DNA of 28,457 nt from Jaapia argillacea MUCL 33604. Lineage: Eukaryota; Basidiomycota; Agaricomycetes; Jaapiales; Jaapiaceae. Below are positions 1 through 28,288 of the stretch, in pieces. Positions within the stretch are counted from its first letter, which is position 1; each line of letters starts with the position of its first letter. Under the pieces are notes generated by a model. That model ran no database searches, was not told the origin of the DNA, and saw only the letters and a list, made by a program, of their open reading frames with translations. Both the position numbers and the translations under genes were made by a program. The stretch lies in assembly GCA_000697665.1 (NCBI GenBank), contig KL197720.1:30356-58812 (forward strand). The letters run 5' to 3'.

Positions 1-240
1 ATTTTCCTGGGCCCTGTATTGATGGTTTTACCATTTAGGATGGTCATGTGATCTGACAACCACCCCCAACTACCCTCCCTACCCTAGCAGAATTTATTCT
101 GATTTTTCCTGATTTTCCCCAAATTTTTCCAGGTCCAATTGATGGTTTTACCATTTTGGGAAGGTCATGTGACCTGCCAAACAGCACCAAATCCTCTGCC
201 TACCCTAGTGCAATTTATTCTGATTTTTCCTGATTTTTAG
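1..240. repeat. Two-copy tandem duplication, period about 120 bp
   Basis: Two diverged copies start at 21 and 141. Both begin with a GATGGTTTTACCATTT core followed by GGTCATGTGA, and both end in a CCTACCCTAG...AATTTATTCTGATTTTTCCTG block (81 and 202). Each copy carries one TCATGTGA octamer (44-51 and 165-172). It is probably part of a non-coding transposon end or a dispersed repeat. No coding potential is seen. Confidence 0.75.
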
Positions 241-705
241 TGATTTATTCCACTCTTTTATTCCGCTTTTTCAGCTATTTACCATTTTAGGTAGCTAGCT
301 ATATATGGACATCCCCTGAGTCAGGTCCACATGGTCCACATGGTCCCAGCAGGTCCTAGCTGGCCAAGCTATGCCACTGCCTGTGGACCTGGGACTTATT
401 GCAATAGATTTGCTGGGGTTTGTTGCAATACACTCCTAGCCATTTGCTGGTATAATTGCAATTATATTACAACAGTGGCTGACTGAAGGTTTTTGACTTG
501 TTTGGTCGAAGCCATGGAGAAGATCGCGAGAGTTGTAGAAGAAAGGTGTTGCAAGATGATGTTGTAGAACAAGAGCGTTTCAGAGGAAGACTTCAAACGC
601 CGAGAAATCAAGAAGGTACAATTACATAACAAATTTACAAAACAAAAGAAACGCCGGATTTGGCAATCTTGGTGCGAGGAATTGGCATCGCCAGATTTGG
701 ACAGC
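241..705. other. Intergenic stretch, no convincing gene
   Basis: Positions 300-365 hold short direct repeats of the type GGTCCACATGGTCC. From 568 onward a plus-strand frame is open with coding-like composition (Lys/Arg-rich, then WQSWCEEL) and joins the gene at 706 in frame. A TAG at 565-567 separates it from the only upstream in-frame ATG (514). The N-terminus of the next gene may therefore begin in an unrecognised exon here. Confidence 0.4.
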
Positions 706-1907
706 ATGCCACAAGGGAATGGGATCGATCCAAGCATTCAGCAACGCCAACAGGCCAAGGGCTGCAACCATCTTGATCCTGCACAAACAGTGCGTTCTCT
801 CCAGTATGCGTTCTTGTGTCTTCTCTGACTTCCCTGATGTTTCAGTGGAATGGGATATAGTCATGCACGGCGACTCAGATGGTAATGTGATTGCATTTCA
901 TCGAACGAGATCTGACTTCACTTGGTATTTAGATTCCAGCAACTCATCGATCTCCTTGGATCTACAGGAGATGGATGAAAGACAGAAGTCTGTTGGCCAT
1001 TCTCGCCAATCATCAGGATCCGATTCCTCCATAGATTGGGGTAGCCCTCCGCCGAGCAGTAATGCTCTGGTGATCAAATCCGATCTGATCGCTGAGACTG
1101 CAGAGGGTCTCCCATCCAGTCAGACCACGACCTCCTCCATTGACTTCGGATCCCAACCACAAATCCCAGGAGCGTCAGAAGTTCTCGCCGACCTCACATG
1201 GCACCAGGCTCCAGCACCTCGCCCCACCAGCCGAGGACCTTTTCCCGACTACCGCCCAGGTTTAGCTTTGGGCTGGGAATCCACTCCTGTGTCTACACCG
1301 TTGACGCCGGAGCTTCAGGAGACCGCTCGTGAGTCAATATCAATCATTTATCTTTTGAATGGCCTACAATGTTCCTCAGAACGATTTCTTTATAACATAG
1401 CCGAATCGCCAGAACATGCTTTGGTGATCTCAACCAAGGATAAGGGCAAAGGAAGAGAGTTGAAACCGGTAAGCACATCACGATATGACTTGCTTACATT
1501 GATGAACCCGTGAACAGGATCAAAGCCCCTCGACAAGCGTCACACCACACATGCATCAGCCACCTCTCCCGGTCCCATCCACATCGACTCATTTCGGCCA
1601 GTCCCGATCCAACTTGGGTACTCCTGCCTTCGCCGAGAATCAGTCTCATCCCTCCGGAGGACATCCATTCCTGCCCACGCCCATTGGCGGTGGGTTTGCT
1701 GGTGCAACACCCTCCTTGACGGTGATGTTGGGACTCTCTCAAAGGGTTTGGATGCACCAAGAGGCCATCCAAGACAACTACTTGAACACAATGACATCTC
1801 ACCTACAACAGCTCGACCAGCTCAGCGATCTCATCTACAGGGAACTGGAGGCCTTGGACATAGCGAGGGTGGCGATTTTGAATGCGGAAGTGGAGAATGT
1901 GTATTAA
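706..1907 (+). CDS. Uncharacterised Ser/Pro-rich protein with C-terminal helix, five exons
   Basis: I do not recognise this gene. The best splice model is 706-803, 846-881, 940-1328, 1380-1468 and 1518-1907, which sums to 1002 nt (333 residues) with no internal stop. The introns are 42, 58, 51 and 49 nt with donors GTATGC, GTAATG, GTGAGT and GTAAGC. The middle is Ser/Asp/Pro-rich and looks disordered (SSDSSIDWGS-like segments recur at two places). The last 60 residues look helical, possibly a coiled coil. The gene converges on the minus-strand gene ending at 1964, leaving only 56 nt between the stops. The start is uncertain, because the frame stays open upstream to 568 without an ATG, and an alternative acceptor at 1400 would give a 72-nt third intron. 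It sits at the left edge of the KDZ block, so it may be element cargo, but this is inferred from position only. Confidence 0.5.
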
Positions 1908-1963
1908 CTTTTTGATGAACTCGGATTGTAATGTAAAACTATTGATTGAAATGCAGATCATGA

Positions 1964-4900
1964 TCAACGGAGCCGAGATGGGCCGGCAATTGGCTGAGGT
2001 TTCACCAGTGAAATACTTCGAGTAACTGGGCAATGGTTCATGGGAAGAGTCTTTGGGACAACCCCTTTCATGCGTTTTGGCGGACCTTGCTCTGGAGAAT
2101 AATGAGTGATCGCCGGGGAACAAAAAGGTGAAGCACCAACTTGACAGGGGGACTTGAGACGTATACTGTTTCTTTTTGAGCGGTTCATCTGAAACTCTCT
2201 TAGTCACGATCGCCAAAGAATGTCGATTTCTTTCGTACCGGGATTGCTTTCCTCCCATCCTCAACTCGTGGTCTTTTCTTGACGGGTTGAACTTTGAGTT
2301 TGGTTGTAAATGTGAATGAGCGGTGTCATCCCCACAAGTCAATTCTAAATGTCATACATGGGACTCTCATCAAAGACTTTATGGACTCTGAAGTCGTGTT
2401 AGCCAAAATCCTCCATCGCATTGGAGGAAAAATATCTGACCTGGCTCTGGAGTCGGCAAAGCTGGGACGAAGACTGAAGCCATCATTAGCTCAAGGCTCT
2501 GGCGAGAATTGAGCGAGTCCCTCACCTGCTTTCCCCTTTTCCTGAGCTTGACTGGTAGCATTATCTGTGATAGATATGAATGTTGAGGCCATCTTCGCAG
2601 AATGACGTTGAAGACGCCTCTTACCAGCTTCCTCCTTCAACCGTCTCGCCATGGCCGAGTTGGCCAGGGGACGGGGTTTTGGGCGAGTGATGAGTTTAGT
2701 AACAGGGGTAGCAACAGGAGTAGCTTGAGATCCATGTCTGAGTCAAAGCACATGCAAAATAATTACATACACTTACCAGGTTCACTCTCGGACTCCTCAG
2801 AACTCTCGATGCGTGCCTGGCGAGACAATCGCCTGCCGGAAGGGACTCCACTCAGCAAGTCTGTGGTGGATCAAACCTAGTTGCTTCATTGTGAAGTCAA
2901 GTTGACTTACTGTCATCAGAAGGAAACTTGATGGGTTGTTTGCCTTTGTCTGGTTCTGATCACAGTCAGCGACACATCAATCGACCTTCCTGGTGACACA
3001 TACCTGTTCCCGGCGAGTCATCGACCAATGCAGTCTGAGGGGTTGACTTCTGCTTCGCTTTCCCTAATCTGGATGTGAATACAGCAACATTATCCCAGGC
3101 AATGATTCTCACGTACCCTTGTTCATCTTTGACATCCCTGCAGGTGTCTTTTTAACTACACCAGATGTTATTTAAGCAGTGGAGGGGCTAAGATAAACCG
3201 CTTACCTTGGGGAGGTTGGCCTTTCTTGTTTGCGGGGGTGGATGAGTCTGAGTCTATGTCGCTGAACATAGCGACAATTTCGTTTCTCTTGCCTTGACGC
3301 TCGGTATTCCTTTTATCTTCAGAAATCATCAATGTCCCAAGCATGTTTGGTGGAGTAATAGAGACTTACCCTCATCAGGACTTCCATGATGGCGAAGTTC
3401 CCAATCTGTGTGTTCTGAATCGTACGGATCCTCTCGTGCTTTCATCTTCCCTTTTGCCTTCGATGTCATTCCCACCTCTAGTCAGTGGGGTTCTGCCGTC
3501 AGCTGAATGGACGGAAAAGAGTGGAGACTACTCACCAATGACATCCTGGATGGCAGCCCGACGTTTCTTCTTTCCCTGGCTCCTAGTTGACTCTCGGCCT
3601 GTACGAGATGCAGTTGAATTATTTTCAGTGGGGGAGAGAAGTTGTTCTCACCGTTTTCATCATCTCCACTCCCATTTTGGGCCAACTCCCAATCCGTTTC
3701 ATCTGTATCGGATCAGAGGTCGGGCTTTTGCCTCCTGCTAGCCTTGGATCATTTCGCCTTACCATCTACAGCGAGTTGAGTCTGGAGTATGGCATATCAT
3801 AGGAGCTACACACCTTGCAACTTCTCCAGAGTCTCAGACTGGTCATCAACTCTGTCAAACTCGGTGGGATGGACCACCTGATCCTTTACCTTCACCTTCT
3901 TCCTCCGACCTCGAGTTCTCGTTTGCTTCTCCACCTTCCTGGTGTTCCCACCGACTGTGAAGTCGAACTTGTCGCTGGGAGTGTCCCTGATCTTTTCCAA
4001 CATCTCCTTGAGATCCTTGTAATGCATCTTTGAGGGATCTGTGACTTTTCCACTGCTAGGTAACCACGTCTCATCAATGTACATCTGTGGGTCTCGGGTC
4101 AGTTTCGCCCAAGGCACGGACTCTCCTTCGTTGCCCGTTACTAAGGCTGCCGGGGAACAGTGTCAGATGGCTGGGTCGATACGGGCAATAATATGAATAC
4201 TCCCACCCCATATCATGTTCAGGTAGTCCTGAAGGATGACTGCCAGGCGACCTTGTCCCTTCCCAAGCTCCGCCGGAATGACTGGACGGCCCTCAGGGTT
4301 GTGAGTAAGTTGAACATTGTCTGGACATTTCTTGTTGCGACCGCCCATTCCCGGTGGAATGAGATCGACTTTGCCATCTTTGAATCTGTCAGGACTACGG
4401 TCTCGGTGATGTAGATCCATGCACCAATCGCGATCTGACAGTACTCCCTGAAAGGTTTACAATTTTGGGTGATGAATTTGGGAAACATTTTGCTGAGCTT
4501 GACCTCCGTTTTGGTCTCAGCCCTACAACTTCTCAGAATGGATATGCAGAGTCCCGGCGAAGAACTTACACAAACACCTCAACCTCCCCGGCAGGTGTAC
4601 GGTAGGAGTAGAGTATCATGACCTCCATAGCAAGCTTTTCCTGGCAGTGATTGGCGAAGGCAGACATGATCTTGTGAGCTCTGCTTTCGGCGGTTCTACA
4701 TGGAACAACTCATGAGTCGGACTTGAAGGGAGAGATCGACGAGCTCACTGAGATTTCACCAAGGCTGGAGCTCCAATCTGGTTCCACTTTTCCGCCTGAA
4801 TAGTATACCCCCGCCTTTCCTTGTCAGTCAGCTCCTTCATTATCTCACTGACGACGGTCTGATAGCAGGTGAAAGCCCGCTTGTCATTTCCCTTTACCTC

Positions 4901-5329
4901 AGGGCCGACAGTCTCGGCGATCCTACGCCGGATGTCTTCCCTCCTCTCATACTTGACCACGTACTTTAAATTCCAATCCCTGAAGAAGAAACCCATCATG
5001 TCGCTCATGGTTCCAGGCCTTTCTTGCATGATGTGGCTGTGAACAGCCTGGAAGAAGTGTAACAGATGGTGAAGGGTCCGGTTCAGAGTGAATTGAGGAC
5101 TCACGGAGATGATTTCGTCTCTCTCATCCTCAGAGAGCTCAGCGAGTCCATCGTGAATGTCCAGAACAGCATCAGAAGTGTCAGCCAAGACACCAACATG
5201 TTCGTGTTGCTCAGCCGTCTCGTAGTGGGGGAGGAAGGTGTTGACCACCTCAATGTCCTGGGCAGTAAGAGAGTACCCCAGAGCATGTGGATTCCTCCTG
5301 AGACCTTTGGTGCACCGTTTGCATGCCAT
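1964..5329 (-). CDS. Uncharacterised 762-residue protein encoded in 20 exons
   Basis: I do not recognise a named family. Reading the minus strand from ATG at 5327-5329, the exons are 5329-5105, 5047-4749, 4695-4570, 4522-4445, 4394-4207, 4146-3814, 3702-3652, 3598-3536, 3477-3370, 3316-3206, 3155-3117, 3063-3004, 2955-2911, 2860-2777, 2723-2625, 2564-2526, 2473-2441, 2387-2358, 2291-2239 and 2188-1964. They total 2289 nt and the frame is open throughout. The first 260 or so residues are globular, with a helical stretch around 130-170 containing ELTDKERRGY and AEKWNQIGAP whose spacing faintly resembles an HMG box; I do not claim one. The C-terminal half is basic, Ser/Pro-rich and low in complexity, with clusters such as GKKKRR and VKKRPR that could act as nuclear localisation signals. 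A TDWEL motif appears in exons 7 and 9. Fourteen successive introns are phase 1. The acceptor of exon 5 (4394 or 4385) and the last two exons are the least certain. Confidence 0.6.
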
Positions 5330-6309
5330 AATACGTGGTGAAAGCGTAGAGGGGGAGAAACGAATATGAAAGACACAAGGTTAGCCGATGGTTGGACAAA
5401 CAGAAAGGCCCATAGCCGAACATTTGCAGTTCACACGGGTATCGGGACAGGTGGGTATCGGGGCAGATCCACCCCATCGAATGCCAGTTCCTTGCGATCA
5501 ATGCAAACGATCCCCCAGTGACAATGTATGGAGTTCACCTGTGAAGGCAATTGTTCGGGTGTCAGAATCGCCGAAGACAATTGATACACCCACATCAAGG
5601 AGGCTTCGATCACTTGCCATACGCACAACGGGCGCAAGGCGTATGTTGGTACAAAATTACTTGAAGCCTGGACCACGAGTAGTTGAAGCTCATTGACGAG
5701 CACAAAAGGCATGGCACCATTTTCTATCATTCCACTGTAGATAATTTTGGTGTAGAATGACTACGAAGTGGGGCGAGCAAGGAGGGTGGAACTCGCAATC
5801 AAATGTGGACAATCTGGCGTGCAATAAGTGTGAACAAGGGTGGAACTTGCGATCAATGGTGGACACTTCATTGCATGGTGTAGCTGGGGTCTCAAACTGA
5901 GGCCTCCATGCCTATTGTTATCTACAAATCCTTCCTTATTTTTGTGCAATGATGCAGTAATGTTGCTGCATTGGGTTGGGCATGTGGACGAGAATCAAAG
6001 CCAGAGTCGACCTTCATTGAGGGAATGGCCGAATTCGCGCAAACAAATGTGGACAGGCTGGCACAAACACGGTCCACTACTGTCTAGTTACATTCAGGTC
6101 GCTTCTGCCTTGACACAAAAGCACACCTGAATTAAAGTGTCACAAATATTCCCGGTTTCTGACTTGCTGGATATGAAGTTCAGATCGATGATGAATCGCT
6201 AGGAAACTTGATCTCAAGTCACCATCGAATCTTCCAACCAGCTCTCAATACTTCCCGCATCGCCAAAACCTATTTTGTCTCTTATTGAACCTTTTGCTCT
6301 ATTACATCC
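5330..6309. promoter_or_regulatory. Divergent intergenic region between the 20-exon gene and the TET/JBP gene
   Basis: These 980 bp separate two divergently transcribed genes and probably hold both promoters. A direct repeat beginning GGGTGGAACT occurs at 5784-5811 and 5838-5865 (54-bp spacing). A related AAATGTGGACA core occurs at about 5801 and again at about 6046. A minus-strand open frame of 99 codons (5431-5730) has no recognisable homology and could be an upstream exon or chance. No clear TATA box is seen close to either start codon. Confidence 0.4.
5784..5865. repeat. Direct repeat pair, 28 bp, 54-bp spacing
   Basis: The copies at 5784-5811 and 5838-5865 both read GGGTGGAACT, then Y-GC-R-ATCAA, then TGGACA, with a few substitutions. 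They lie in the middle of the divergent intergenic region and could be binding sites for a shared regulator. Function is not shown. Confidence 0.6.
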
Positions 6310-7592
6310 ATGACTCTGCCCAACCTCAATCATTTTCACTCTGTGATGGCATTTGAAGCTCAGGTCGCTCAATATCTTTACTGCCTTTTCTTGTGCAAGC
6401 TTGAGCCTGAATCGTCACTGTATCCTGCGTTACTGGCACTACCGGCCTCGATCATTGGTGAATGCCAATGGATGGCCAGCGTCATCTACGAGGCATTCAC
6501 TCACCCTAGTGAGTTTCATTTCGGAGGTGTTGTCTAATACCTGATCCTCTCAAGTTTCCTTTCGTTGGAGCAGCCACGAGTATGCGCTGGATCTCGGCAA
6601 GCAGACTGGGATGAATTGCAAGAAAGAAGAGGAGATGGAAGCTCTCTTTCCCCCATTGTTCACTGGCGATCTGCCCATATGCAAGGACCCTTTCGTGATT
6701 GTCGACTCCACCGGCATGGTGTTGATGTGGCAGCTTCCCTCTCTCCTCTGCTGGTCACGGCAGGTATGTTTCCCCTCTCACTCATTGATTTTGGCACATC
6801 TCACGGCAAAAAGATGGCTATGTTTTGCGCTGCTTTGAGCCTCAATCCACTGATGAGGACTTCTGGAAAACCTCAGGTCCCAGGGAAGTGTGGAAGCTGG
6901 CGAAATGACCCGGCGTACTTCAAAGCTCCCTCTGGTCAGTACAAGGTCACGCCCGGTGTTCTCAACTTTAGCCCAGCATGGTTTCAACTTGGTCATCAGG
7001 TATGTTTTGAAGCATTCCACACCTACGTTGTCCGGTGACGAGTTGAGTTGCTAAGGGTCCGGCGAGTTCGCTCGGTGTCTCGGCGACTTTGAACGCAAAG
7101 GCTCGCCTTTTAGGCACTGATCAATGGTTGAATGACACGATCCATTCAACGGCCATCGTGAATGCGATACTGAGGGTCATTCATCCTCGACTGTATGCGT
7201 ACGGTCGCAGGGGTCGAGAAGCCTTGTTGGCTGATGGGATGGATATGAATTGGTTGTCGATCTACACCGGAGCCGCAGTCATATCCAACAGGGAAACACC
7301 TGTGCATCGAGATACTCAATGCTGGGTGGGTTGGTATGATTTACTGGTTTCTGCAGGACCCTATAGATACGCGGAGATGGTCTTGCCAAGCATAGGCATC
7401 AGGACGCCGGATTTGCCAGGAACTCTATCCGCTCTCAGCGGTCATACTCTGCCCCATGGGGTGTCGGAAGCGGATGGAGAGAGAGTTTGCTATGCATTTT
7501 TCATGCGACACAAGGTCTCTCAGAGGTTAGGGTTACGTCTTGCCGAACCCATGATGGCGGACCATTACCTCCGCGCCAGGAGGAGCGTTTAG
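6310..7592 (+). CDS. TET/JBP-family 2-oxoglutarate/Fe(II) DNA dioxygenase
   Basis: Enzymes of this family oxidise 5-methylpyrimidines in DNA, in animals 5-methylcytosine to hydroxymethyl- and further oxidised forms, using Fe(II) and 2-oxoglutarate. The exons are 6310-6508, 6555-6763, 6814-6999 and 7056-7592, giving 376 residues. The introns are 46, 50, 50 and 56 nt minus one (three introns: 46, 50, 56), all GT-AG. The double-stranded beta-helix core lies in the last exon: PVHRDTQCWVGWYDLL supplies the iron ligands His282 and Asp284, SGHTLPHGV the distal His (about 332), and the Arg about nine residues later (341) is placed to bind 2-oxoglutarate. The upstream stretches VIVDSTGMVLMWQLPSLL and LNFSPAWFQLGHQ match the N-terminal part typical of fungal members. 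All ligands are present and no stop or frameshift is seen, so the enzyme is probably functional. The KDZ transposase begins 84 nt downstream on the same strand, the known genomic setting of basidiomycete TET/JBP genes. Substrate preference cannot be read from sequence. The start ATG is the first in the open frame. Confidence 0.85.
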
Positions 7593-7616
7593 TCTACACA
7601 TAGTCAACTGGCTGAC

Positions 7617-7622
7617 AATAAA
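7617..7622 (+). terminator. Candidate polyadenylation signal of the TET/JBP gene
   Basis: An AATAAA hexamer lies 25 nt after the TET/JBP stop codon and 54 nt before the KDZ start codon. It argues for a separate 3' end for the TET/JBP transcript despite the very short spacer. Confidence 0.4.
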
Positions 7623-7676
7623 ACTTTCGTGAACCTCTTTCTTCTGTGGCTATTCTGAACTTTGCCCTCCCTTCCT

Positions 7677-10600
7677 ATGGCTCGTCGAAAGGGTATCAAG
7701 TTCGCTGGTGATGCTCCTTTGAAGAGGATCACACGAAAAAAGAAGGCGAAGGGCTCTGCAAGGTGGAAAACGGTGTTGGTGCAGGGAACTGAAGATGGTG
7801 GGATGAGTAGCCCTAGTAAGTCAGGATGGGGCACCCCATCACAGGACTGGCAATCAAGAGAAGACTTCTTGCAAAATGCTACAGTGGAGATGGATCCTAT
7901 GACTTCCTTGTTGTCAAGCACACAAAAGGTACGCCGTTGCATCTGATGTCTGAGATGACCCACGATGATGTTTTGACAGACCCCAAATGACATGATGAGG
8001 GAATGGAAGGAGAAGGCCCCCATCTTCCTCCATACTCTGCTGTCTGGCGAAGCACGGCCTTCAGATGGCTGCTGCCATCGCTGTGGTCAGCCTGGATTGT
8101 GGCGATGTTTGCAATGTTTCGGCTGTCCGCTGTTCTGCACAGAGTGCTGCAGGGATGCTCACATGTCGCATCCCTTCCATCGGGTGGAGATTTGGAAGGA
8201 CGATCACTTCTCTACCGGTTGGCTTTGGCAGGTTGGGGTTTGCATTCATCTTGGACATGGAGGGGGAGAATGTCCTGGAAACACCTATCTGCGAACTACT
8301 ACGACCGCCGGGGACCAGGTTGGCCTTCAATCGCCAGAGTTTCTTCCGTACCCTGGCGATGTGCAGGGGGATGGCCACACACCTGATGAGTTAGAACCAA
8401 ATCTCAATGTTGATCCTGTTTCCGTTCCATCCTCCAGTCCACCCTTCAATCCTCCCAGTTTGCCAGCACCATCCAGCATCACCACTTCTCGCCGAGCAAC
8501 AGTAGAAGATGCGCCCGATGAGGATGATCCATTCCTGGAGGATGAGGAGCGGGATGGAGACGAGCATGAGATTTGGGAGGATAAGGAGGATGATGTGGAG
8601 GAGTGGAAGTCCGTGACAGAACTCCACCGTTTACTCACTCATGCGGAACTTACCTCCCTGCCAAGCACCAAAGGAAATGGGAGGAATTTTACGATAGTGG
8701 ATATGTCCGGCATTCACAAGGTTGTTGTTCATTTTTGCAATTGCGGGAAATGCCAGCTGGAGTTTCTCCAGCTTTTGGACTTGTCGATCTATCCTGGCAG
8801 CGTCAAGCGCCCAAGGACAGGCTTTACTTTTCAGGTTCTCGACAACTTTCACATTCATAACCTGGAATGTAAAACGAATGCTCGGGAGTACTATCAAACC
8901 ATTCGGCGGGCGACCAAGCCATCGTTTCCACATTTGGCTCAAGTACGTGGATCTCAACTGAGTGAAGAACTGAATGTGACTGTTTTTCAGGATCGGTATA
9001 GAGAATTCATGTGTGTCGTTCGCCAGTGGAGATATCTCAAGGTCATGAAATGGCATGGTTTTGGCCATGGCATGGCGAGAGTCATTGAACCCAGTGATCT
9101 CACGCTCTGGTGTGCTGCCTGCCCTCAACCAGGAATCAACTTACCTAGCGATTGGAAGGAGGATCAAAAAAGGTGCGTGAGGTTCATGTGGGGTGACTGT
9201 CTACTAAATGCACTTGGGTGTAGTTATCTCTACACTCGAATCATCAACTTGGATGGAAATATGAAAGCCGAGCAGATGGTCCAAAAACACGTCGATGTTC
9301 CCCTCACGGAGGGAGGGGGTTTTATGGTGGGGGATCAGGATTACAAAGCCTCTATCAAGGCTTCCATTGACGATCCACCGGTATGTACAATCTCACCTCA
9401 GTGGTTCAATCTCCTGACATCACTCCAGGGGGGAACATGTCACAATCATCAGGCTGTAACTCAAGGGAACATGGGATCCAAGAATCTTCAGGTCACCGGC
9501 ATTGGGGCTGCTGCTTGTGGGCGACATGGGGCTTTCTGCCCTCATTCGGTCGTAAACTTTCACAAAGGTGAAAGGTTTGTGTTTCTCCACTGCTCCATGC
9601 CCTGGTCGCCGAGAAACCGTCATTATAGACAAATGAACATGGACTACACATTCACTCAATCCCTCCTCCGTACCATGGGAGGGGCTGATGGCTTGCGCCT
9701 GGTGATGTCTCTCTACGACATAAACTGCCAGTATGCCATCAACCTTCTCAGAAGGATCACCCGGAACCGACAATATTTACCCCTTGCAAAAGGCATCACC
9801 ATCCGCCATGGCATCGGATTGTTCCATGTGCACGGTCATCAAGATTCGTGCACCCCGAGGTACTCGCCGAACTACATTCCCAGCGCTGGTCAAGTGGACG
9901 GCGAGGTTATTGAAACCCTTTGGTCGAATCTCAACTGGATTGCATCTAGCTGTCGAGCGATGGGGAACAATCATCGGGCGGAGACCCTTGACATCCACAT
10001 GAACGAAAACAACTGGAAGAAAATGTTGAATATCGGTGAGTGCCATTTCCGTTGTTTGCGGATGGGAGGCTGACAACCTCCACCCAGTCCTTTCGTTGCT
10101 CAAAAAGTATGTGAAAGCTCTGGACGGAGTCGCCATGAGCGCTGCAGGCTTCCGTGACATCAGCCAAGCGTCAACCCACAAGGAAATGAAGACCTGGAGT
10201 GAAGACGAATCAAACGCCCAGGAGTCTCACGGCTTTAATATTGTGGCAATGGACATTTACGCTCCCACCGTGAAAGAGGGTGAGCCCGTTGTTTGTTGAT
10301 TCATGCTAATACTCTGCTAACAATAAATCCAGCTCCCACAAAATCAGAAATCCAGCTCCAGCTCACCAAAGAGGAAGGAATGGACTCAACACCCATTCGA
10401 GGTTCTGCGAGTTGGTTGTCCAGCGGAATACGCATTCAGGAGGTGCAGTGAGTGAAGATTCCTAGTCACGTCATTTGGCAACTGATATTTGCCAAAGGTT
10501 GGAGCTTGCGGCGGAGGTGAGAAGGCTGGGTCGGCGACCAACAGTCACCCAAATGAATACTATTGAAGACCGTCGTCGCCGACTTCGTGACCGAATTTCA

Positions 10601-11668
10601 ACCTTCAACAACACCTCGCCAAAGTATCTTGGTCAGATCGCAGACATCCTAGGCGACGATCCAGACGCCGGAATTGATTTTGGAACTCGATTTGACAACC
10701 TTGACCTCGATGGGGAGATCAACGAACCGGACATCGACCTCGACAGATACCGTGTGGATTCCTCCAAAACACCTGCCGAGAAATTACCCATCTCACTTCC
10801 TTCGAGCATTGGCTTGGAAGCCTGCACTGGTAGCGCCCTGAAAAAGCTTGCCAAACAAGAACTTTGCCTGAGGAAAGGACAGGCCAATGACGCTCTGCAG
10901 CAGATTCGGATTGCCCTCAGCAATAAGTCTTACATCTTTCGCAAGTATGTTCGGCATTACAAAAGCCAATCGAAGAAAACTCGCACTTGGGGACATATTT
11001 CTCAACAGGACGGCATTGTGCAAAAGCATGCACAAATTTATGCACAATGTCGAAAAGCCATGGTTCAGCTAGGAGCATCTTCTCACACCCTCGAAAAATA
11101 CCAGATCCTCGAGAAGAGCGACTGCAGGGTGAACACAGGGATAATTGACGACCCAAGCGAAAGAGGAAATCGCAACAAGGTTTTGCCTTGGATTTGGGGC
11201 CTCGGCAATGGTGTGAATAAGGGCAAACATCTAACAGACTGTGAGTCCCGCCGATGACTAGATCACCGTGAGATCCGCTGGACTGACACTGCACAAGTCG
11301 TCAGGCTTCGTTGGCTCCGTGCAAAGGCCATGAGAGATTGCTGGCAGGAAGAGCTCACATTCATCATCAACGAGATGGATTGGGTCTGCAATTACTTCAA
11401 TTATCATGGTGACTCCTGGTGAAGGAGGGCGGAGCATCATTCCCCCACACCTGGCCACGAAGCATATGCTGCTCGTCAATGTCACATGCGGTATTATTTT
11501 GCTTGTACTGCACGTACTCAGTTCGAAGAGGCCAAGCTCATGCACCCGCACCCAATTTTAGCCGATTTCCAGGTCAACAGATCGGTGAAGAATTTTCAGG
11601 ATCTGCTCAACTCAGACTCCGAGGATCAGCAATCACAGTCCTCCAGTGGTGCCGAGGATGATGTATAG
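7677..11668 (+). pseudogene. KDZ-superfamily transposase with CxC2 cysteine cluster; in-frame TGA at 11420-11422
   Basis: This is a DNA transposase of the Kyakuja-Dileera-Zisupton superfamily, with an RNase H-like catalytic core. The exons are 7677-7928, 7980-8942, 8991-9172, 9224-9380, 9429-9574, 9629-10035, 10088-10279, 10333-10447, 10498-11240 and 11298-11668, totalling 3528 nt in a single frame interrupted once by TGA. Truncated there, the product is 1093 residues; otherwise it would be 1175. A basic N-terminus is followed by the CxC2 zinc cluster (about 115-165; CHRCGQ, FCTECCRDAHMSHPFH, then GHGGGECP), an acidic linker, and the transposase core. The core has LDGN near 476 (Asp), a CxNHxAVxQxN-type segment, RQMNMDY, YDINCQY (Asp about 597), FHVHGHQDSC and DGEVIETLW (Glu about 659/662), followed by the typical C-terminal helical region ending in LPWIWGLG. 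After the TGA the same frame continues for 82 codons with family-like sequence (AYAARQCHMRYYF), so the stop looks like a recent nonsense change. An alternative 54-nt intron (11409-11462) would remove it. Confidence 0.85.
11420..11422 (+). other. In-frame TGA inside the conserved C-terminus of the KDZ transposase
   Basis: The codons before (FNYHGDSW) and after (RRAEHH...AYAARQ) resemble one continuous KDZ C-terminal segment, where a tryptophan-rich WWxxR(A) motif is usual. A single base change, for example TGG to TGA, would explain it. The frame then stays open to TAG at 11666-11668. Confidence 0.6.
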
Positions 11669-11679
11669 ATAGATAGATA
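11666..11679. repeat. Short TAGA microsatellite
   Basis: About three and a half TAGA units follow directly from the natural stop codon of the KDZ frame. Confidence 0.7.
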
Positions 11680-11826
11680 CAATGATGACTTGTTCAATTG
11701 TTGAAATGATCCTTCCTTGTGTTGATCACCCAGTGATCACTCCGGCTTTTCAAATCTCAGCAAGGCAACTTTGCATCGCTCGCCAGCAGTCGCATTGCTC
11801 CAGCAGATTTTCCACACCTTGGCATA

Positions 11827-13016
11827 ATGGATCTCAGACTCGCAAATCCAACTACTCACTCGGCGAAGATGCAACCCCTGTGCATAAAGATTCTGGAGAA
11901 GATCATTCCCCCCACAGAAGGTGATCATCTGAAGACCTTGTACGGACTATTCCAAATCCCCAGGTTTTTCAACTCCCTCGCCGATCGATTGCATAGAGCA
12001 ATCCAAACCTATATTCTCCTCCATCCGCATGGTTGTTTGGACGAGGAGATCAGGGCTTGCTGGGTCTTAGGTATGCGATTAGAGTTGGTACGTCTTCCCC
12101 ACATCCTTCCTTTGCATGGATTTCGGCGTTGACATTCCCAGACTTTGGGAAATGTGGTTTGGGGTACGGCCTGTCAAGGCGGCTTGCCGCAGAGCAAACC
12201 TTCGCCGGCGTTTGATCAAGTCTACGCTTTCTTTTTCTCCTACGACACGCCAAGCGACCTCGATGTCCCAATCAGCTGGGAATCGATCTCATCCATTCTT
12301 TCAATTGAACCGTTCACCTGTCCAGATTCTATTCAATATCTCCAACTGCCGTTTTGGTGGGATCAACCCAATCTCAGGGATGGCATCTACAAGCTGATGA
12401 TGGCTACAGGCATGTTGGTGAGTAATTCTTTGTCCCCTGACGATATTCTGAGCTCATGAGTTATTTCTAGGAGGCTTCAATGGACTGGGTCATCGCTGGG
12501 AGGGTTCCTGACTTCCTCCGGCGGAATGGTTCTTGCCCGTTGCTGGGTAAAAATGCCTTTCCGTGGGAATTGGAACTCATGGGATTTGATGTTGAGTCCC
12601 AGTCAGACTATGTGAGTTGCTCGCTTGATTTGTCACATTCATATATTTAATGTCAATACTAGTCGGCGGAGGAGCTTCGTTACGACTTGATCTTGGCGAG
12701 AGCTTGCAGAAGGTTGGGCCTCCCACCCTCATCCGCCACACACTTGCGTCCCTCTCGGCTCCTCTCCTGTGCCTCAGCCATCTCCATTCCTCTCATTTCT
12801 CCCAAGATGACAGATGGCACCACAACAAATGCTCTCCGCAAGATTATGAAGCTCCAGCTAGAAAACGTCGCCCAACTCGTGGATACTTACAAGGACCTCA
12901 TCGAGTCAATAGATGCGTTGGATGGAGAATGGCAAGCTCACATCAAAGCATCCGAGAAGTATCAATTGGGAGCTGAGATATTTTTCTATGAGGACTTTGC
13001 CTGGACGATGATTTAG
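11827..13016 (+). CDS. Uncharacterised KDZ-linked protein, tandem paralogue A (343 residues)
   Basis: I do not recognise a named domain. The exons are 11827-12087, 12142-12417, 12471-12611 and 12663-13016 (87, 92, 47 and 117 codons plus stop). All introns are phase 0 and 51-54 nt long. The product shares a layout with the next gene: an N-terminal helical region with a LADRLHRAIQTY segment, an LGNVVWG motif at the start of exon 2 followed by VYAFFFS, a WVIAGRVPDFL segment opening exon 3, and a C-terminal helix of about 45 residues that looks like a coiled coil (QLENVAQLVDTYKDLIESI). No signal peptide or membrane segment is seen. The gene starts 158 nt after the KDZ stop on the same strand, suggesting element cargo or a transposition accessory factor; that is inference from position. 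Confidence 0.65.
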
Positions 13017-13176
13017 AGTAGTCTTCATGTATTTTATTATTACCATCGGCGAATCAATCCCATTGCAAAAGAATTGTCTGACAATAATCTTTTATTCACC
13101 GTATCGCTGGGAATCACCAGACATCGTTGGCGAAACCCTTTGCAACGTTGAGACTACCTCTTGTCCTTCATCATCA

Positions 13177-14362
13177 ATGGATCCTGATTCAAAGTCGTCC
13201 GCTCATCTCTCTCGCATCGCTTGCGTTTGCCGTCTTCAAGAACTCGTCGCTGGCCGGCACAAGCAATTGATCAACCTGCAAAATGCATGGAACTACATCC
13301 AAGATTTTTTCATCACCCTCGCTGGACGGCTTCACGCTGCCCTACAGGCCTATGTTGAGAAACATCCCTTTGGATGTCAGGATGTGGAGGAGCGCCTACT
13401 GTGGATCAAGGGAATATGCATTGAACTGGTGAGTTTGCATCCACCGCCATAAATGTCCTCTTCGTGTTAAGTGATGTCCAGATGCTTGGAAACATCTTGT
13501 GGGGAGAGGCTGCGATGTCTGGCCTCGCCAAGTACAAACTCCATCCTGTTTTCTCCGACCTCTACTCTTTCTTTTTCTCGGACTTCACCAGGAACGATCC
13601 AACAAAGACTCTGGCGAATTGGACTCATGTTCATGGCTATTTCCGTGACGCGACATTCCCCAGCGTTTCCAGCGATGCCTTTGCACACTGGCCAGCGTGG
13701 TATACCCATGTTGATCTCCGGCGAAGCATTGAACACCTGTCGGAGAGTTGTGAGGTCACGGTGAGGTCCTTTTCCTGCACTGGCTTCCTTCTGTTCATTC
13801 TGATTCGGTTCCTCTTAGGATATATTGCTTCAGTGGGTCATTGAAACCGGTGTTCCTGAGTTCATTCACCACTCCGACGACATGCCGCTGCAATACATAT
13901 ACCCTTATGAGAGACCTCTGCTTGGGCTCCCGGCGGTTGATTATATTTCAAACTATCTTCCTGTGAGCACCTTAATTTTGCTGACATCTTTGGAGCGCTT
14001 TGTTGATACATCTTCAGCCGCCGAGACATCTCAGCTGGGACTCTCTCATTGCCAATGTCACCACATTATTACCCCACGCCAGCACCCATTTGTGGCATGG
14101 AGGGGTGTCCATCACCCCCAGGCAACCCAGTCATGTACTGCGTTCAATCGAGGTGGCGTTGGAGCCTATGGCTGGTCCACACATGGTCAACGGACCAATC
14201 ACCAACTCCATTCGCCGAATCGTCTCCATTCATCAGGTCCAACTCCAGGTTTTGCAGGCCAGGTATACAGAAACTCTCAGAGCCTTGCAAAAGGCTTACG
14301 ACGATCTCATGGCCCATCGAGCATCTTATGAGATGATAATTCCCCAGGCTCCTCGTTCCTAG
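13177..14362 (+). CDS. Uncharacterised KDZ-linked protein, tandem paralogue B (339 residues)
   Basis: The exons are 13177-13428, 13482-13760, 13819-13962 and 14018-14362 (84, 93, 48 and 114 codons plus stop). All introns are phase 0 (53, 58 and 55 nt), at the same positions as in the preceding gene. Aligned motifs are LAGRLHAALQAY against LADRLHRAIQTY, LGNILWG against LGNVVWG, LYSFFFS against VYAFFFS, and WVIETGVPEFI against WVIAGRVPDFL, plus a matching C-terminal helix. Overall identity looks low, so the duplication is old or fast-evolving. The start at 13177 has a good context (CATCAATGG) and parallels the start of copy A; the frame is open upstream to 13027, so a longer N-terminus is possible. 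Function is unknown. The spacer to copy A is 160 nt. Confidence 0.65.
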
Positions 14363-14787
14363 TTAGCTCAGTCCATAGTTGTCATCGATAGTTTTCTGTA
14401 CTCCAGCATCTATCTGTGCGTGTCGTGAATTCAACGCCCTCCGACCTCTCGCCTGCTATGAAATATTTGACCACAATTCAACTTATGTACTCAACTTGTT
14501 TGCTGGGTGTCCTTGCAAACCCCCGGTATTGCTATCAAACTGTGTTCACTCACTGTGCATCTCAATACCATTGTTTACTCATTCAAAATCTCTGTTGTCA
14601 TTGTCTTCCCTACCAATATTTGACTTCATTCAACCATTGTTTCGCCGAGGGCTTCGCCGGGAGTTTGTAATCCAACCGCCGGATACCCTTGTGAAGACGC
14701 TACTCTCTTGGCTTGACTTTCAGAGAGTGTTTTATGTCTCCGGTTGTTCTGCTCAGTTGTTCGTCATTCACACTACCCAAGTTAGAG
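14363..14787. other. Non-coding stretch after paralogue B
   Basis: Pyrimidine-rich DNA leading into the 103-bp array. A plus-strand open frame (14379-14915) runs on into the tandem repeats and is not credible as a gene. No other feature is recognised. Confidence 0.5.
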
Positions 14788-15405
14788 TCTCTGGTCCTCC
14801 AATGAATTTTGATACTACTTTCCCCGGTCAGCCACCTATCTCCCACCCTCCCAAACTATCACCAGACCCTCCAAAGTACATTAGTAAGTGTCCCAGGTCT
14901 TCCAAAAAATTTTGACACTCCTTTCCCCGGTCAGCCACCCATCTCCCACCCTCCCCAACTATCACCAGACCCTCCAAAGTACATAAGTTAGCATCCCAGG
15001 TCTTCCAACAAACTTTGGCACTGCTTTCCCCGGTCACCTAACCATCTCCCACCCTCCCAAACTATCACCGGACCCTCCAAAGTACACTAGTTAGCATCCC
15101 AGGTCTTCCAACAAAATTTGACACTGCTTTCCCAGGTCACCTAACCATCTCCCACCCTCCCAAACTATCACCGGACCCTCCAAAGTACACTAGTCGGCGT
15201 CCCAGGTCCTCCATTAAATTTTGACACTCCCTTCCCCGGTCACCCATTCATATCCCAACCTTATACACCCTCCCCGGACCCTCCAAAAGTCTCTGGTTAG
15301 TGTCCCAGATACTCTGATAAATTTTGACCGTGCCTTCTCCAGTCACCCCCCCATCCCCCCCGGCCTCATACACCCTCCCCGGACCCTCCAAAGTAGCCCT
15401 TGAGC
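14788..15405. repeat. Six-unit tandem array, period 103 bp
   Basis: Unit starts are at 14788, 14891, 14994, 15097, 15200 and 15303, exactly 103 bp apart. Each unit begins TCCCAGGTCYTCC, continues with AAATTTTGACAC, then TTTCCCCGGTCA, CATCTCCCACCCTCCC and CCGGACCCTCCAAAGTAC. The inner units are the most alike, while the first and last are the most diverged, and a decayed partial seventh may follow (about 15406-15495). No coding function is seen. Confidence 0.9.
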
Positions 15406-15666
15406 ATCTATTGTACCTTGAGACCGGTGTACAATTTACTCCCGGTCACCCTCCTCAGTTCACGGCCCCCCTACCTCATCCCCGGTCCTATATATAATAC
15501 ATTATCAGTACTATACAGCCTTACAATACAAAGTCAATAGATGTTTCAGCAATATATATATGTGATCTTAGGTCGGCCGCTACATATCTATCCCAATTCT
15601 TGATTATCGGCCACTGCATTAGCATACAACCTACCCTCCATCGGCCGCACCATTAGTAGTGAGCCT
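15406..15666. other. AT-rich transition zone with TCGGCC motifs
   Basis: This starts with the decayed end of the tandem array, then a TATATATAA-like run near 15488. The first members of a TCGGCC(GC) motif cluster lie near 15572, 15609 and 15642; the cluster continues to about 15720. No gene is seen. Confidence 0.4.
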
Positions 15667-17070
15667 TTAGAAGACAGCGGCCGCTACGCTAGTAAAGGGC
15701 ATATTGGACCATCGGCCAGTGTCGGTTGGCCCGTTACCATCCTCAAAAATGTTCGTCGGGTGATGGGTTATTAAAGGAGGTAAATAGCTGAACCATGTGA
15801 TTTTACTCACTCCATTGGTGATCTGTTTCACATCTCTTTCAACTGCATCTCCTTGATCGTCTCTATCTTTACGTTTGACAACCTTCATAGTGACTGGAGA
15901 TGATGAGAAGCAATGCTTGAGCCAAGCATCCTAGTTTCTTTTAGTGTATATTCATTTTAAAATTAGAGTGAACCTACCATTACTAGGTCTTTCTCGAGCA
16001 CGAGTATGTATCTCAATGTGCAAAGTAATTTGTGACCACCACCCCTATGATGTCGAACTGTACCAAAGGACACCTCTATTTCAACAAGTTGACCTGGGCG
16101 AATAGTGTGGGGAAAACATGTCTTTGTGCGACGGAAACTAGTATTGTTTTTTAGTGATACATACTCTCAATCTTCAAATAAATTTCTCTTACCCTTCTGA
16201 TTCGGTCATCCTTTCCACTAGTTCCATGTAATGAACAACATTGTCTGGTGTATGGACAAGCCAATGCTTCTTCTTCTTGATGATTTGATGGGGATCAATA
16301 CTATCTGGAATGTCTATGACATCGATCAGCATCACCAGATTTGATGGGCAAAACAACAAATTTGAAAATTCAATGGATACAAAGTATGCAAATTGATCAA
16401 TGACATTGGTATCGAGAAGCCCGGATGGTACAGCTTGAGTAAGCACCATAGAAATTTGGCACATAGATTTGACTGCTTTGTCGAAGTAATCGAGTCCATG
16501 ACCATGAATATGAGTGGATTGCGATAAATAGCTCAAATTGTTCAGTAGACTGAATCTCCATCAGTAACTTTTTTTGGACTGTAATATAAAATTCTTACCT
16601 GTTCTGGTTCAGATAAGGTGGGAGTGACACCGTAATTACGAAATCTTGCAGTTGAAATACACATTCTTTGACTTCGTTTCCTTTCAATACACCGAGTCAA
16701 ATTCTTGTCGGCACACCACAGAGAATTCCTTTCAATGACCATTGTAACTCAGTGTTCTACAAAGTAAAAGAATCATCAGAAGATGTCCAATTGAAAGATA
16801 GATCGTACCTTTCTGACAAGGCACAATTGATCTTCTGGAGACTTAGTCTCTGCCTCAGTAACAAATTCTTGAAGGCAACAAGCTAAAATTCTTCAGACTG
16901 ATGTATATAAAAGAGTTACAGATGGTGACTTACTTGATTCTTCGACATTGAGCAAATCAGTTTTTATAATGTCAAACAGTTCAACAGGTATTGGTACGAT
17001 CCCAGTGGTGAAGGGATGCATCTTTGTGTTCAACCTTAATATGCCATTCACAGAGATCAGTTTTGGTCTA
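15667..17070 (-). pseudogene. Decayed multi-exon gene of unknown function
   Basis: Reading the minus strand from about 17070, spliceable coding pieces follow one another. The first contains PIPVELFDIIKTDLLNV, the second EAETKSPEDQLCLVRK, and the third starts with NTELQWSLKG. The fourth is long (16543 down to 16189, LDYFDKAVKSMC...HWLVHTPDNVVHYMELVE), followed by one with IRPGQLVEIEVSFGTVRHH and a last piece ending near 15667. The third piece has an in-frame TGA at 16697-16699, while joining it to the fourth through a 49-nt intron (donor GTAAGA, acceptor GATTCAG) keeps frame. The HTPDNVVHYMELV and IRPGQLVEIEVSF segments resemble uncharacterised proteins that recur in Agaricomycete genomes, but I cannot name a domain. 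The true start is not identified; a further minus-strand coding-like fragment lies at 17290-17637. Confidence 0.4.
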
Positions 17071-25934: not shown

Positions 25935-26750
25935 GTGTCATTTCATACTGAACGTGAATTACAATTCACAGAATTAGATCCAGTATTTCATCATGTCGCC
26001 TTTGATTACATTCTGGAGAAAAGCAATCCTAACCTTGGAAACAGTTCAACTTCATGGAACAAGTACGGTAACATCTCAAAAGACTGTCAGATGAGTCATG
26101 TTTTTTACATGATTGAACCAAGTTCCATTGATATCCCCTCGATTTTCCAAAAAATTAATCACAGTCACAATTTGACCAATTCTCTTTCACTTGCAACTTT
26201 GTACATTGTAAAATTGAACATATTCAGTGTCATCTCATGTATCAATGAAAATGTACCTTTCTTAATACAAATGTCTTACTCACGTCAATCAGTTGAAAGA
26301 ACAATTCAATTTGTTTGCACCCTTCTAATGCAATGTTATATTTGTAATCACGACTATGCAGTTGCATTGTACAATCAATCCTATCCAATTATCAGTGAAC
26401 TGCTTTTGTTTCGGGTCATTCAATGTTTAAGTACTATTATATGGAAATGTTTTCTTCAGACCCTCTTAACTGATGATACAATAGATTATCGAGGTCTAAA
26501 TCAGGGTCATTCTTTTAAGCAAACACATGATATGAGGTCAAAAATTTCACAGCTTGGAGGAGGAAACAAATCTATTAATAATCAAAGGATCATCAAAGTT
26601 GCTAAAGATGTGTTACATCGATACACGGGGGTCAACACAATACACGACTTGGGAATCATCATTTCATTCATGACTTTGAACATGAGTATTTCAGTTTTCT
26701 TGATTATCTTCCTTATGAGATTGCCATCAAAAAATACCCTACAAATATGA
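25935..26750 (+). CDS. Uncharacterised 271-residue open frame upstream of the Helitron-like region
   Basis: A long uninterrupted frame in AT-rich DNA, ending four bases into the next frame (ATGA overlap at 26747-26750). The N-terminal two thirds show no recognised motif. The part around 26540-26650 (ISQLGGGNKSINNQRIIKVA) looks like structured protein. The shift from this frame to the next, and from that to the third, suggests that all three once formed a single polyprotein, but an independent gene cannot be excluded. Confidence 0.3.
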   Translation: MSFHTERELQFTELDPVFHHVAFDYILEKSNPNLGNSSTSWNKYGNISKDCQMSHVFYMIEPSSIDIPSIFQKINHSHNLTNSLSLATLYIVKLNIFSVISCINENVPFLIQMSYSRQSVERTIQFVCTLLMQCYICNHDYAVALYNQSYPIISELLLFRVIQCLSTIIWKCFLQTLLTDDTIDYRGLNQGHSFKQTHDMRSKISQLGGGNKSINNQRIIKVAKDVLHRYTGVNTIHDLGIIISFMTLNMSISVFLIIFLMRLPSKNTLQI

Positions 26751-28073
26751 GAGTAGTATTTTACCAACTTCAAGTCAGTGCACTCCTTGAGTTTTTACCA
26801 AAAGGAGAACTTAAGAAAATCTCTGACTTACATGAAAATTTGACTTATAATCTGAGGGGACCAAGTAACATCAATCAACAAACATTTGACTTTCATTGGT
26901 GTTGGATATGTACATCATATGTCACTGTTTTTGAACCTCACGAGAAGAAAAAAAGAAACAGACAGACAAAAAAAAAAGAACCTCAAAAAAATCTGCTGCT
27001 GTACCCTACAGACATGCTGATAATCTCTACAAATATTATTAATGATAGTAACAAGTTTCCACCAAAACCTTTGGAAGACAGTCACATAAGAGAAATTGTC
27101 AGACAGTACTGTGATAACTTAGAACCGAGCTATTATGAAGAAAGGGGTTGTAAAGTTTGTGGAAGACTAACCATTGGCACTCAATTAACATCCGAAACTT
27201 TGTTAGACATTGATTGGAATATTCTTGCTCGACCTGGTGAGGGTGTTACAAGAAAGGAAAGAAAATCATCATCTGATCCAATTGAAGAATTTAAAGGGCC
27301 AATAGTAGCATCAAAATGTACCGAAGTATGCAAATATTGTGAAGAAGAGTTGAAGCAGGATAAGATACCTAAATTTTCATTGGCCAATGGAATGTGGCTT
27401 GGTAATGTACCTGAAGTGCTCAAAAACTTAACATGGGCAGAATGACTTCTATATCAAGAGCTCCAACAAACAACTACATCACAAGAGTATCAATGGGTCA
27501 AGGGGGTTACAAAATGAAAGCAAATGCTATAATATTTGCAAATCCTTCCACAAAAATTTATAAACATTTACCTCCACCAAAAAAAGATCTGGAAGAGATC
27601 TTAGCAATTATTTTCACTGGTCCTCACAAACCCACTGAGGATGATTTGAAACAAATTCCATTGCTGGTAAGACGAAACAAAGTGATGAATGTACTTGAAT
27701 GGTTAAAGTTAAACCATATAGACTATGCTGATTTAGAGATATCACATGAAAATATGAAAGAATATATCAATGATGAAATTCCTGTCCCCATTCAATACAA
27801 GCCTCAAGATAATAATATAGATCCTGAGTCAACTTTAACACACAATCTTGATGAAGAAGAAGGTTTTGATGAAGGAAATTGCCCATTTGCAGTTCATGGT
27901 ATATCTGGAGAGGAATATGCAGGAATGTCAGTCAATGCACTGAAAGCAACAGGTCTTCGACACCTACAAAATAACAGAATGGTTTTAGTGATATCGCAAG
28001 ATAATGAAATGCAATCCATATATAACAATCCTCAATTATATCCTCAAATGTTCCCATGGTTATTTCCATACGG
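26747..28073 (+). pseudogene. Helitron-type replicase/helicase N-terminal region with DUF6570-like segment, frameshifted and truncated
   Basis: Frame one (26747-27445) contains FPPKPLEDSHIREIVRQYC, a CKVCGRLT motif, a CxxC pair (CKYCEEEL) and PKFSLANGMWLGNVPEVLK, features of the DUF6570 segment found upstream of Helitron helicase domains in fungi. At 27444 the reading continues in another frame: WAE ends with TGA at 27443-27445, whereas the conserved continuation (SISRAPTNNYITRVSMGQGG, KMKANAIIF, FTGPHKPTEDD, LVRRNKVMNVLEWLKLNHIDY) runs from 27433, which implies a net one-base loss. The homologous part ends at PQMFPWLFPYG (about 28073), exactly where the LTR-like sequence begins. The Rep (HUH) and helicase domains would lie beyond the insertion and are not in the window. 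This copy cannot encode a complete protein. Confidence 0.7.
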
Positions 28074-28288
28074 TGTTGTGAACGCGTCTGGACTCGTAGA
28101 TTTACTGTCGTTTTCATTCTTCTATCGGACTTCATTCGCTTTCGTATCATTTCCCTTGTCTATGATACTTAGCATTCCTTCATCTTATCTTATCTTATCC
28201 TCTCTTATCTCAGGCATTATCTTATCTTGGACCTTGTACTATTTATAGCATCCAATGACTCGTCTTGTACAGCTTCGTACAGCCTCGT

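Follow-up and report, generated by a model that had tools for sequence, protein, structure and literature searches.

In basidiomycete fungi, genes for TET/JBP dioxygenases are reportedly linked to KDZ transposases, a connection that Iyer et al. are said to have described in 2014 together with extra encoded proteins, including a divergent HMG domain. The closest described systems are the TET-bearing (TET+) Kyakuja elements of Agaricomycetes, which, in the sections of the published account consulted here, combine a KDZ transposase and an AG-type TET with a 7-bp duplication and CA..TG ends (Kojima 2025, PMC12730594); the same sections already propose escape from methylation silencing for these elements and describe the reason why they keep a DNA dioxygenase as untested. 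In the agaric Marasmius oreades (44-Mb genome), KDZ elements are among the main DNA elements, and their terminal inverted repeat (TIR) motifs are, according to the part of the authors' text consulted, characterised in the supplement (PMC8290104). Here we analyse a window of 28,457 nucleotides (nt) from Jaapia argillacea MUCL 33604 (contig KL197720.1, here C12, positions 30356–58812), compared within this one 43.7-Mb genome. The window holds a block of genes for a TET/JBP dioxygenase, a KDZ transposase, two tandem paralogues (A and B) and two further accessory genes (M1 and G1), and, to judge by its sister copies, this block makes up the three quarters towards the right end of a cut-and-paste TET+ Kyakuja (KDZ) transposon of ~19.5 kb, which is newly delimited here and belongs to a known kind, the TET+ KDZ elements. 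Its features are as follows (window positions; the gene models are our own, partly from automatic prediction).

1–481: outside the element; other repeat sequence in place of the left arm, to which the sisters have no match there
482–15799, plus strand: right part (15.3 kb) of a ~19.5-kb TET+ KDZ/Kyakuja-type DNA transposon, delimited by sister-copy homology
~568–1907, plus strand: G1, accessory gene, 5' end of the model uncertain
2399–5329, minus strand: M1, 17-exon accessory gene of 660 amino acids (aa), divergent from TET; gene model and C23 alignment
5330–6309: divergent intergenic region between M1 and TET, 980 bp
6310–7592, plus strand: TET/JBP dioxygenase, AG type, 376 aa, intact; four exons, Pfam Tet_JBP
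7677–11668, plus strand: KDZ transposase gene with CxC2 cysteine cluster; in-frame stop at 11420–11422
11827–13016, plus strand: A, first tandem paralogue, 343 aa, four exons
13177–14362, plus strand: B, second tandem paralogue, 334 aa, four exons
14780–15395: subterminal tandem array, 103-bp unit repeated 6.0 times
15400–15799: right end with the clustered CpG-bearing motif TCGGCYG/CRGCCGA/CGGCCG; five of the seven matches in the window copy fall in the last 600 bp
15782–15799, plus strand: right terminus AAATAGCTGAACCATGTG, common to C12, C56 and C23

The extent of the element is set by three sister copies elsewhere in the genome (C56, C1 and C23). The closest matches to A, B, M1 and G1 lie in four places, the window copy and these sisters, in identical order, and long aligned pieces share 90–92% (C56), 91–94% (C1) and 84–90% (C23) nucleotide identity with the window. 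In each of the three sisters homology begins at window position 482, and in C56 and C23 it extends as far as the right terminus (15799), the right end of C1 being lost; the sisters run ~4 kb further left, ending at CAGCCCATTCAGCC, so that the window copy, which is without its left arm, was rejected as a complete element. From left to right the sisters hold the CAGCCC left end, a further minus-strand gene with a Zn2Cys6-like motif (C-x2-C-x6-C ... C-x2-C-x6-C), G1 (plus), M1 (minus), TET (plus), the KDZ transposase (plus), A (plus), B (plus), subterminal tandem repeats and the CATGTG right end. Ends and target-site duplications of the sort to which a preliminary description of this locus had pointed are present: C23 has both CAGCCC and CATGTG with a perfect 7-bp duplication (ATCTTAA), and six of the seven bases match in C56. 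These termini are of the 5'-CA..TG-3' type, and the interrupted inverted motif CA-N5-TTCAGC that is common to both ends, although short, is the sole candidate inverted repeat, whereas Kyakuja is reported without TIRs in the consulted sections of PMC12730594. The right-end pattern TAAATAGCTGAACNNTGTG, with at most two mismatches, gave 33 listed matches in the genome against 7 for a reversed control, and the left-end pattern gave 8 against 0. We put the element at ~19.5 kb because C56 measures 19,552 bp once an 8,889-bp insert is subtracted; the 21.5-kb length from C23 (21,550 bp) was discarded, as a stretch between A and B is longer in that copy (2,233 bp, compared with 310 bp in the window). 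The ~8-kb, four-gene extent first drawn was therefore too small, since the element occupies 482–15799 of the window and also includes G1. Its placement within a known KDZ–TET/JBP kind has held up: as in TET+ Kyakuja (consulted sections of PMC12730594), there is a KDZ transposase of the KDZ/CxC type, an AG-type TET, a 7-bp duplication and CA..TG termini, and it is on these four traits that the assignment rests. Unlike Kyakuja in those sections, which name no accessory proteins, the element here carries five more genes, two of them paralogous.

Linkage across the genome extends this picture. Loci were merged by eye from genome match lists and their neighbours scored by script, which gave lists that are lower bounds (at least 25 TET, 41 KDZ, 15 A/B and 17 M1 loci); the KDZ set includes weak loci (C40, and C13:749k below the Pfam cut-off), and several divergent subfamilies were judged by coordinates alone. 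At 18 of the 25 listed TET loci a KDZ domain lies 1.1–2.1 kb downstream on the same strand, one further locus has KDZ at 10 kb and six have none near. M1 stands head-to-head with TET within 2 kb at 12 of its 17 listed loci; elsewhere an insertion lies between the two (C1:426k), TET is decayed and outside the TET list (C23), the locus is rearranged (C78:39k) or TET is 27 and 14 kb away (C1:380k and C3:1612k, respectively). KDZ lies no more than 4.1 kb upstream of 11 of the 15 listed A/B loci (in C78 in opposite orientation), where chance would give 0.14 within 5 kb, and the right end follows 12 of the 15 on the same strand at a distance of 1.2–4.5 kb (eight exact, two with one mismatch and two with two), where chance would give 0.03 within 5 kb. 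C18 and C85, at which the right end is present though KDZ is not nearby, look for this reason like decayed elements, and the 5 kb around two short fragments, both on C49, contain no KDZ and no right end. These fragments are what could be cited for host genes that cluster next to a transposon by chance, a reading to which we give hardly any credence, given that in C56 and C23 the whole set of genes lies inside shared ends flanked by target-site duplications; it was rejected on the strength of those ends. A, B, M1 and G1 are thus, as far as comparison of sequences can tell, cargo of one DNA transposon. The preliminary description had supposed a fixed addition of the pair and an upstream gene, which could not be known from one window and is largely borne out in this genome, and it had looked to the same gene order near other KDZ transposases, which does recur (in the four close copies and in the linkage at listed loci); its view that the pair and M1, if found at conserved chromosomal sites away from KDZ and TET, are not cargo leaves them unrefuted as cargo in this one genome, with 2 of the 15 listed A/B loci lacking both KDZ and the right end within 5 kb.

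The copies show further rearrangements. The insert of C56 (C56:62353–71241) lies in M1 and is bounded by direct repeats of 435 bp (95% alike), as long terminal repeat elements are, and related sequence, apparently in more than one copy, stands between M1 and TET at C1:429.6–446.9k. A unit of ~121 bp is repeated at window 1–240, adjoining the broken left arm, and occurs beyond the broken right end of C1 (C1:457.7–458.4k) and in the extra A–B sequence of C23 (C23:472.6–472.75k). The right flanks of the window copy (15800–17000) and of C23 (C23:468.3–469.3k) are homologous (67% at the nucleotide level, up to 69–73% at the amino-acid level in short minus-strand stretches), with insertion points ~55 bp apart; either the element inserted twice, independently, into related DNA, or it prefers such targets. 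At C1:354449–362391 a left and a right end of the family, in matching orientation, are separated by 7.9 kb with no KDZ or A/B match; this is probably a non-autonomous derivative. Just past the window, C12:65625–70652 holds another C-terminal KDZ fragment and a right-end-like motif (two mismatches), and a related element at C78:29–40k has its TET–KDZ part turned round with respect to A/B and M1, the breakpoint falling within the KDZ gene. Element C76 has an array of a different, 87-bp unit between B and its right end.

The TET exons (6310–6508, 6555–6763, 6814–6999 and 7056–7592) encode an uninterrupted 376-aa protein that matches Pfam Tet_JBP (E=7.7e-11) and has CcTET of Coprinopsis cinerea (7vpn/8jkk, E=1e-29) as its closest solved relative. 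The HxD...H metal triad (His282, Asp284 and His332) and the 2-oxoglutarate-binding Arg341 are present exactly as had been claimed, and the 84-nt gap between TET and the KDZ gene is likewise confirmed. Like CcTET, the protein keeps the equivalents of His-x-Asp, the distal His and Asp337 (here D293); unlike CcTET, it has Cys at the position equivalent to Gly331, for which the consulted sections of PMC12730594 give Gly or Ser. A pattern scan of loci L001–L008 found the TET metal-site stretch in four of the eight, with Cys at the Gly331 position in three, Ser in one and the Asp337 equivalent in all four. The window TET has, by its sequence, the residues expected of an active 5-methylcytosine (5mC) oxidase. 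The gene lies inside both ends in C56, and inside them but partly deleted in C23. Separately, five TET/JBP loci (C47, C31, C4, C36 and C3:1089k) lack a KDZ match anywhere on their contigs (for C3, within 500 kb); these are possibly host TET genes or cargo of other transposons.

The KDZ gene was correctly recognised as CxC2-type, its long open reading frame (ORF) matching PF18758 (KDZ, E=1.6e-44) and PF18803 (CxC2, E=1.5e-27), and needs one correction: the frame that reaches 11668 contains a stop at 11420–11422, 81 codons short of its end, which none of the three sisters has at that place. The automatic gene model splices around the stop-bearing stretch, and splicing may conceivably bypass the stop. 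Ratios of nonsynonymous to synonymous substitution rates (dN/dS) for TET, KDZ, A and B were below 1 in 12 of 12 comparisons (stop codons skipped, without a significance test); between the window and its sisters they were 0.21–0.38 for TET, 0.21–0.43 for KDZ (three exons), 0.30–0.44 for A and 0.37–0.45 for B, and between C76 and C78 (exons 1–2) they were 0.24 for A and 0.39 for B.

A and B, which had been noted as tandem paralogues, are indeed related: 30% of 290 aligned positions are identical (E=8e-40, uncorrected for composition; the start of A was set at the ATG in the frame of its second predicted exon). Both frames are open in the window copy and the sisters keep most splice sites; every one of the three sisters has interruptions in TET, A and B. 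A tree was built from 16 A/B sequences, mostly partial and some with intron read-through; in it the first-position genes of C76, C78, C32, C77 and C18 cluster (0.94), as do the second-position genes of C32, C77 and C18, together with C1b (1.00); support is weak both for the node at which the second-position genes of C76 and C78 join them (0.14) and for the position of A and B of the window itself. On these groupings the duplication is older than at least the C32, C77 and C18 subfamilies, which is likely to hold for the window pair too. At L064 (C1:3346k), a more distant subfamily locus, there is one A/B-like gene 3' of KDZ rather than two (best exon E=8e-7), and an A/B profile run over L001–L038 (TET/KDZ loci with 1.5-kb flanks) gave no match at E≤0.01. 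That single, weakly matching gene, and the fact that A, B and M1 have no assigned domain, would suit a view in which all three are passengers, or genes taken from the host, that play no part in transposition; we hold this to be improbable, as the order and orientation of A/B before the right end are fixed at 12 of the 15 listed loci, the duplication predates at least three subfamilies and dN/dS of A and B is 0.24–0.45.

The upstream gene given as 20 exons in the preliminary description exists (M1) and travels with the element; our model has 17 exons, of which 16 align gap-free with C23, with GT..AG kept in 15 of the 16 introns. The 980 bp between M1 and TET may serve both as a shared promoter region. 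A reading of M1 as an HMG protein was set aside, as searches of Pfam, NCBIfam and PDB sequences gave no HMG match, although a divergent version is still conceivable. G1 has no Pfam match above the cut-off and its matches are confined to the four close copies; a weak relative of the Zn2Cys6-like gene (E=2e-4) lies on the left side of the C76 element (C76:1786–1974). Both G1 and the Zn2Cys6-like gene belong to the element.

The CpG content of the copies differs. Observed/expected (o/e) CpG in the core is 0.70 in the window, 0.47 in C56 and 0.39 in both C1 and C23; TG/CA stands at 191 (C56), 217 (C1) and 205 (C23) of the 368 CpG positions of the window core, and in the reverse direction 62, 50 and 59 CpGs of these sisters, respectively, read TG/CA in the window. 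Changes from CpG to TpG/CpA make up 56 of 183 single-copy changes in C56, 77 of 180 in C1, 96 of 721 in C23 and 24 of 129 in the window, and this loss in the sisters would fit host CpG methylation acting on dead copies. The window copy has CpG o/e of 0.61–0.73, compared with 0.05 in its left and 0.30–0.41 in its right flank. In M. oreades, repeats are more CpG-methylated than the rest of the genome and active transposons less so, according to the consulted part of PMC9674265. Escape from methylation via TET is plausible for an element with such an enzyme.

In the scheme that we propose for this Kyakuja-type element, the KDZ transposase would bind CpG-bearing subterminal motifs (TCGGCYG type) and the terminal CA-N5-TTCAGC, and then excise and reinsert the element. 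TET would oxidise 5mC on the element, in the M1/TET promoter region and at the CpG-bearing end motifs, and could in this way keep host CpG methylation from silencing expression or blocking end recognition; it is because the CpG-bearing motifs are clustered at the ends that we propose a role for TET at transposase-binding ends besides expression. A and B, an old paralogue pair, may jointly assist the transposition complex as cofactors that bind DNA or the transposase. To this whole reading (that is, a Kyakuja-type element whose TET guards expression and ends, with A and B as cofactors) we assign a probability of roughly 0.55. Plant En/Spm elements have methylation-sensitive TnpA sites, and the likeness lies in methylation gating of binding at subterminal repeats; the proteins are unrelated, so this is an analogy only. 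A stricter version, in which the element brings a complete kit for anti-silencing and transposition, TET demethylates the subterminal CpG motifs that KDZ must read together with an obligate A–B heterodimer and the divergently expressed M1, and methylation gates transposition at the very ends, seems to us a long shot; if true, it would make the pair a transpososome cofactor of a new class.

Several points weigh against the proposed scheme. CpG o/e is equal at TET+ and TET-lacking (TET−) KDZ loci (0.541, n=12, and 0.554, n=17; p=0.81; 29 of the 41 listed KDZ loci, with the overlapping locus record L037 dropped), so no protection in cis is visible at that level; CpG retention was accordingly abandoned as proof of self-protection, and the earlier suggestion that the enzyme shields its element from silencing is not shown. 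The higher CpG of the window may reflect a younger copy, which fits equally well. Single-copy C>T changes outside CpG are also numerous (69 in C56, 52 in C1, 203 in C23 and 40 in the window), so decay is not confined to CpG. The end motif was first picked by eye and some of its matches overlap, which inflates P values for the C-copies, where it falls in the terminal 600-bp stretches in 6 of 9 (C23), 6 of 12 (C56), 9 of 15 (C1, left end only) and 5 of 7 (C12, right end only) cases; at L064, retrieved after the motif was fixed, four of five overlapping matches (three of four separate sites) lie in the last ~200 bp. A, B, M1 and G1 have no fold or family in Pfam, NCBIfam or PDB sequences, A and B match no solved structure at E≤10, and a fold prediction of A (197-residue model) was uninformative, with a predicted local distance difference test score (pLDDT) of 38. 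All genome comparisons, moreover, are drawn from one genome.

The equal CpG content of TET+ and TET− loci also bears on a different account of the same transposon, in which TET acts in trans, on the host or on all elements, or the oxidised marks are themselves signals. Consistent with this, the consulted part of a paper on Laccaria and Coprinopsis implicates 5-hydroxymethylcytosine and 5-formylcytosine in regulation and transposable-element silencing (PMC8889193). The arrangement of TET, co-oriented 1.1–2.1 kb upstream of KDZ at 18 of the 25 listed TET loci, and its dN/dS, which resembles that of KDZ, fit service to the element instead; we therefore treat action in trans as a possible but distinctly less probable account than a TET that guards its own element.

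Apart from the transposon, the AT-rich right half of the window contains DUF6570 (PF20209) on the plus strand at 26606–28248 (E=7e-27 on ORF 27415–28248 and 2e-8 on 26606–27445), a domain that we take to be Helitron-associated.

Literature searches, which did not cover Iyer et al. 2014 and do not establish absence from print, found neither the A/B pair nor the head-to-head M1. Because its ends and target-site duplications are defined, its copies are graded by whether the TET frame is intact or broken, and it has candidate CpG-bearing binding motifs and conserved genes that travel along, the family makes the idea of escape from methylation directly testable. If the pair is a transposition cofactor, it would be a component new to KDZ elements as far as the searched literature goes.

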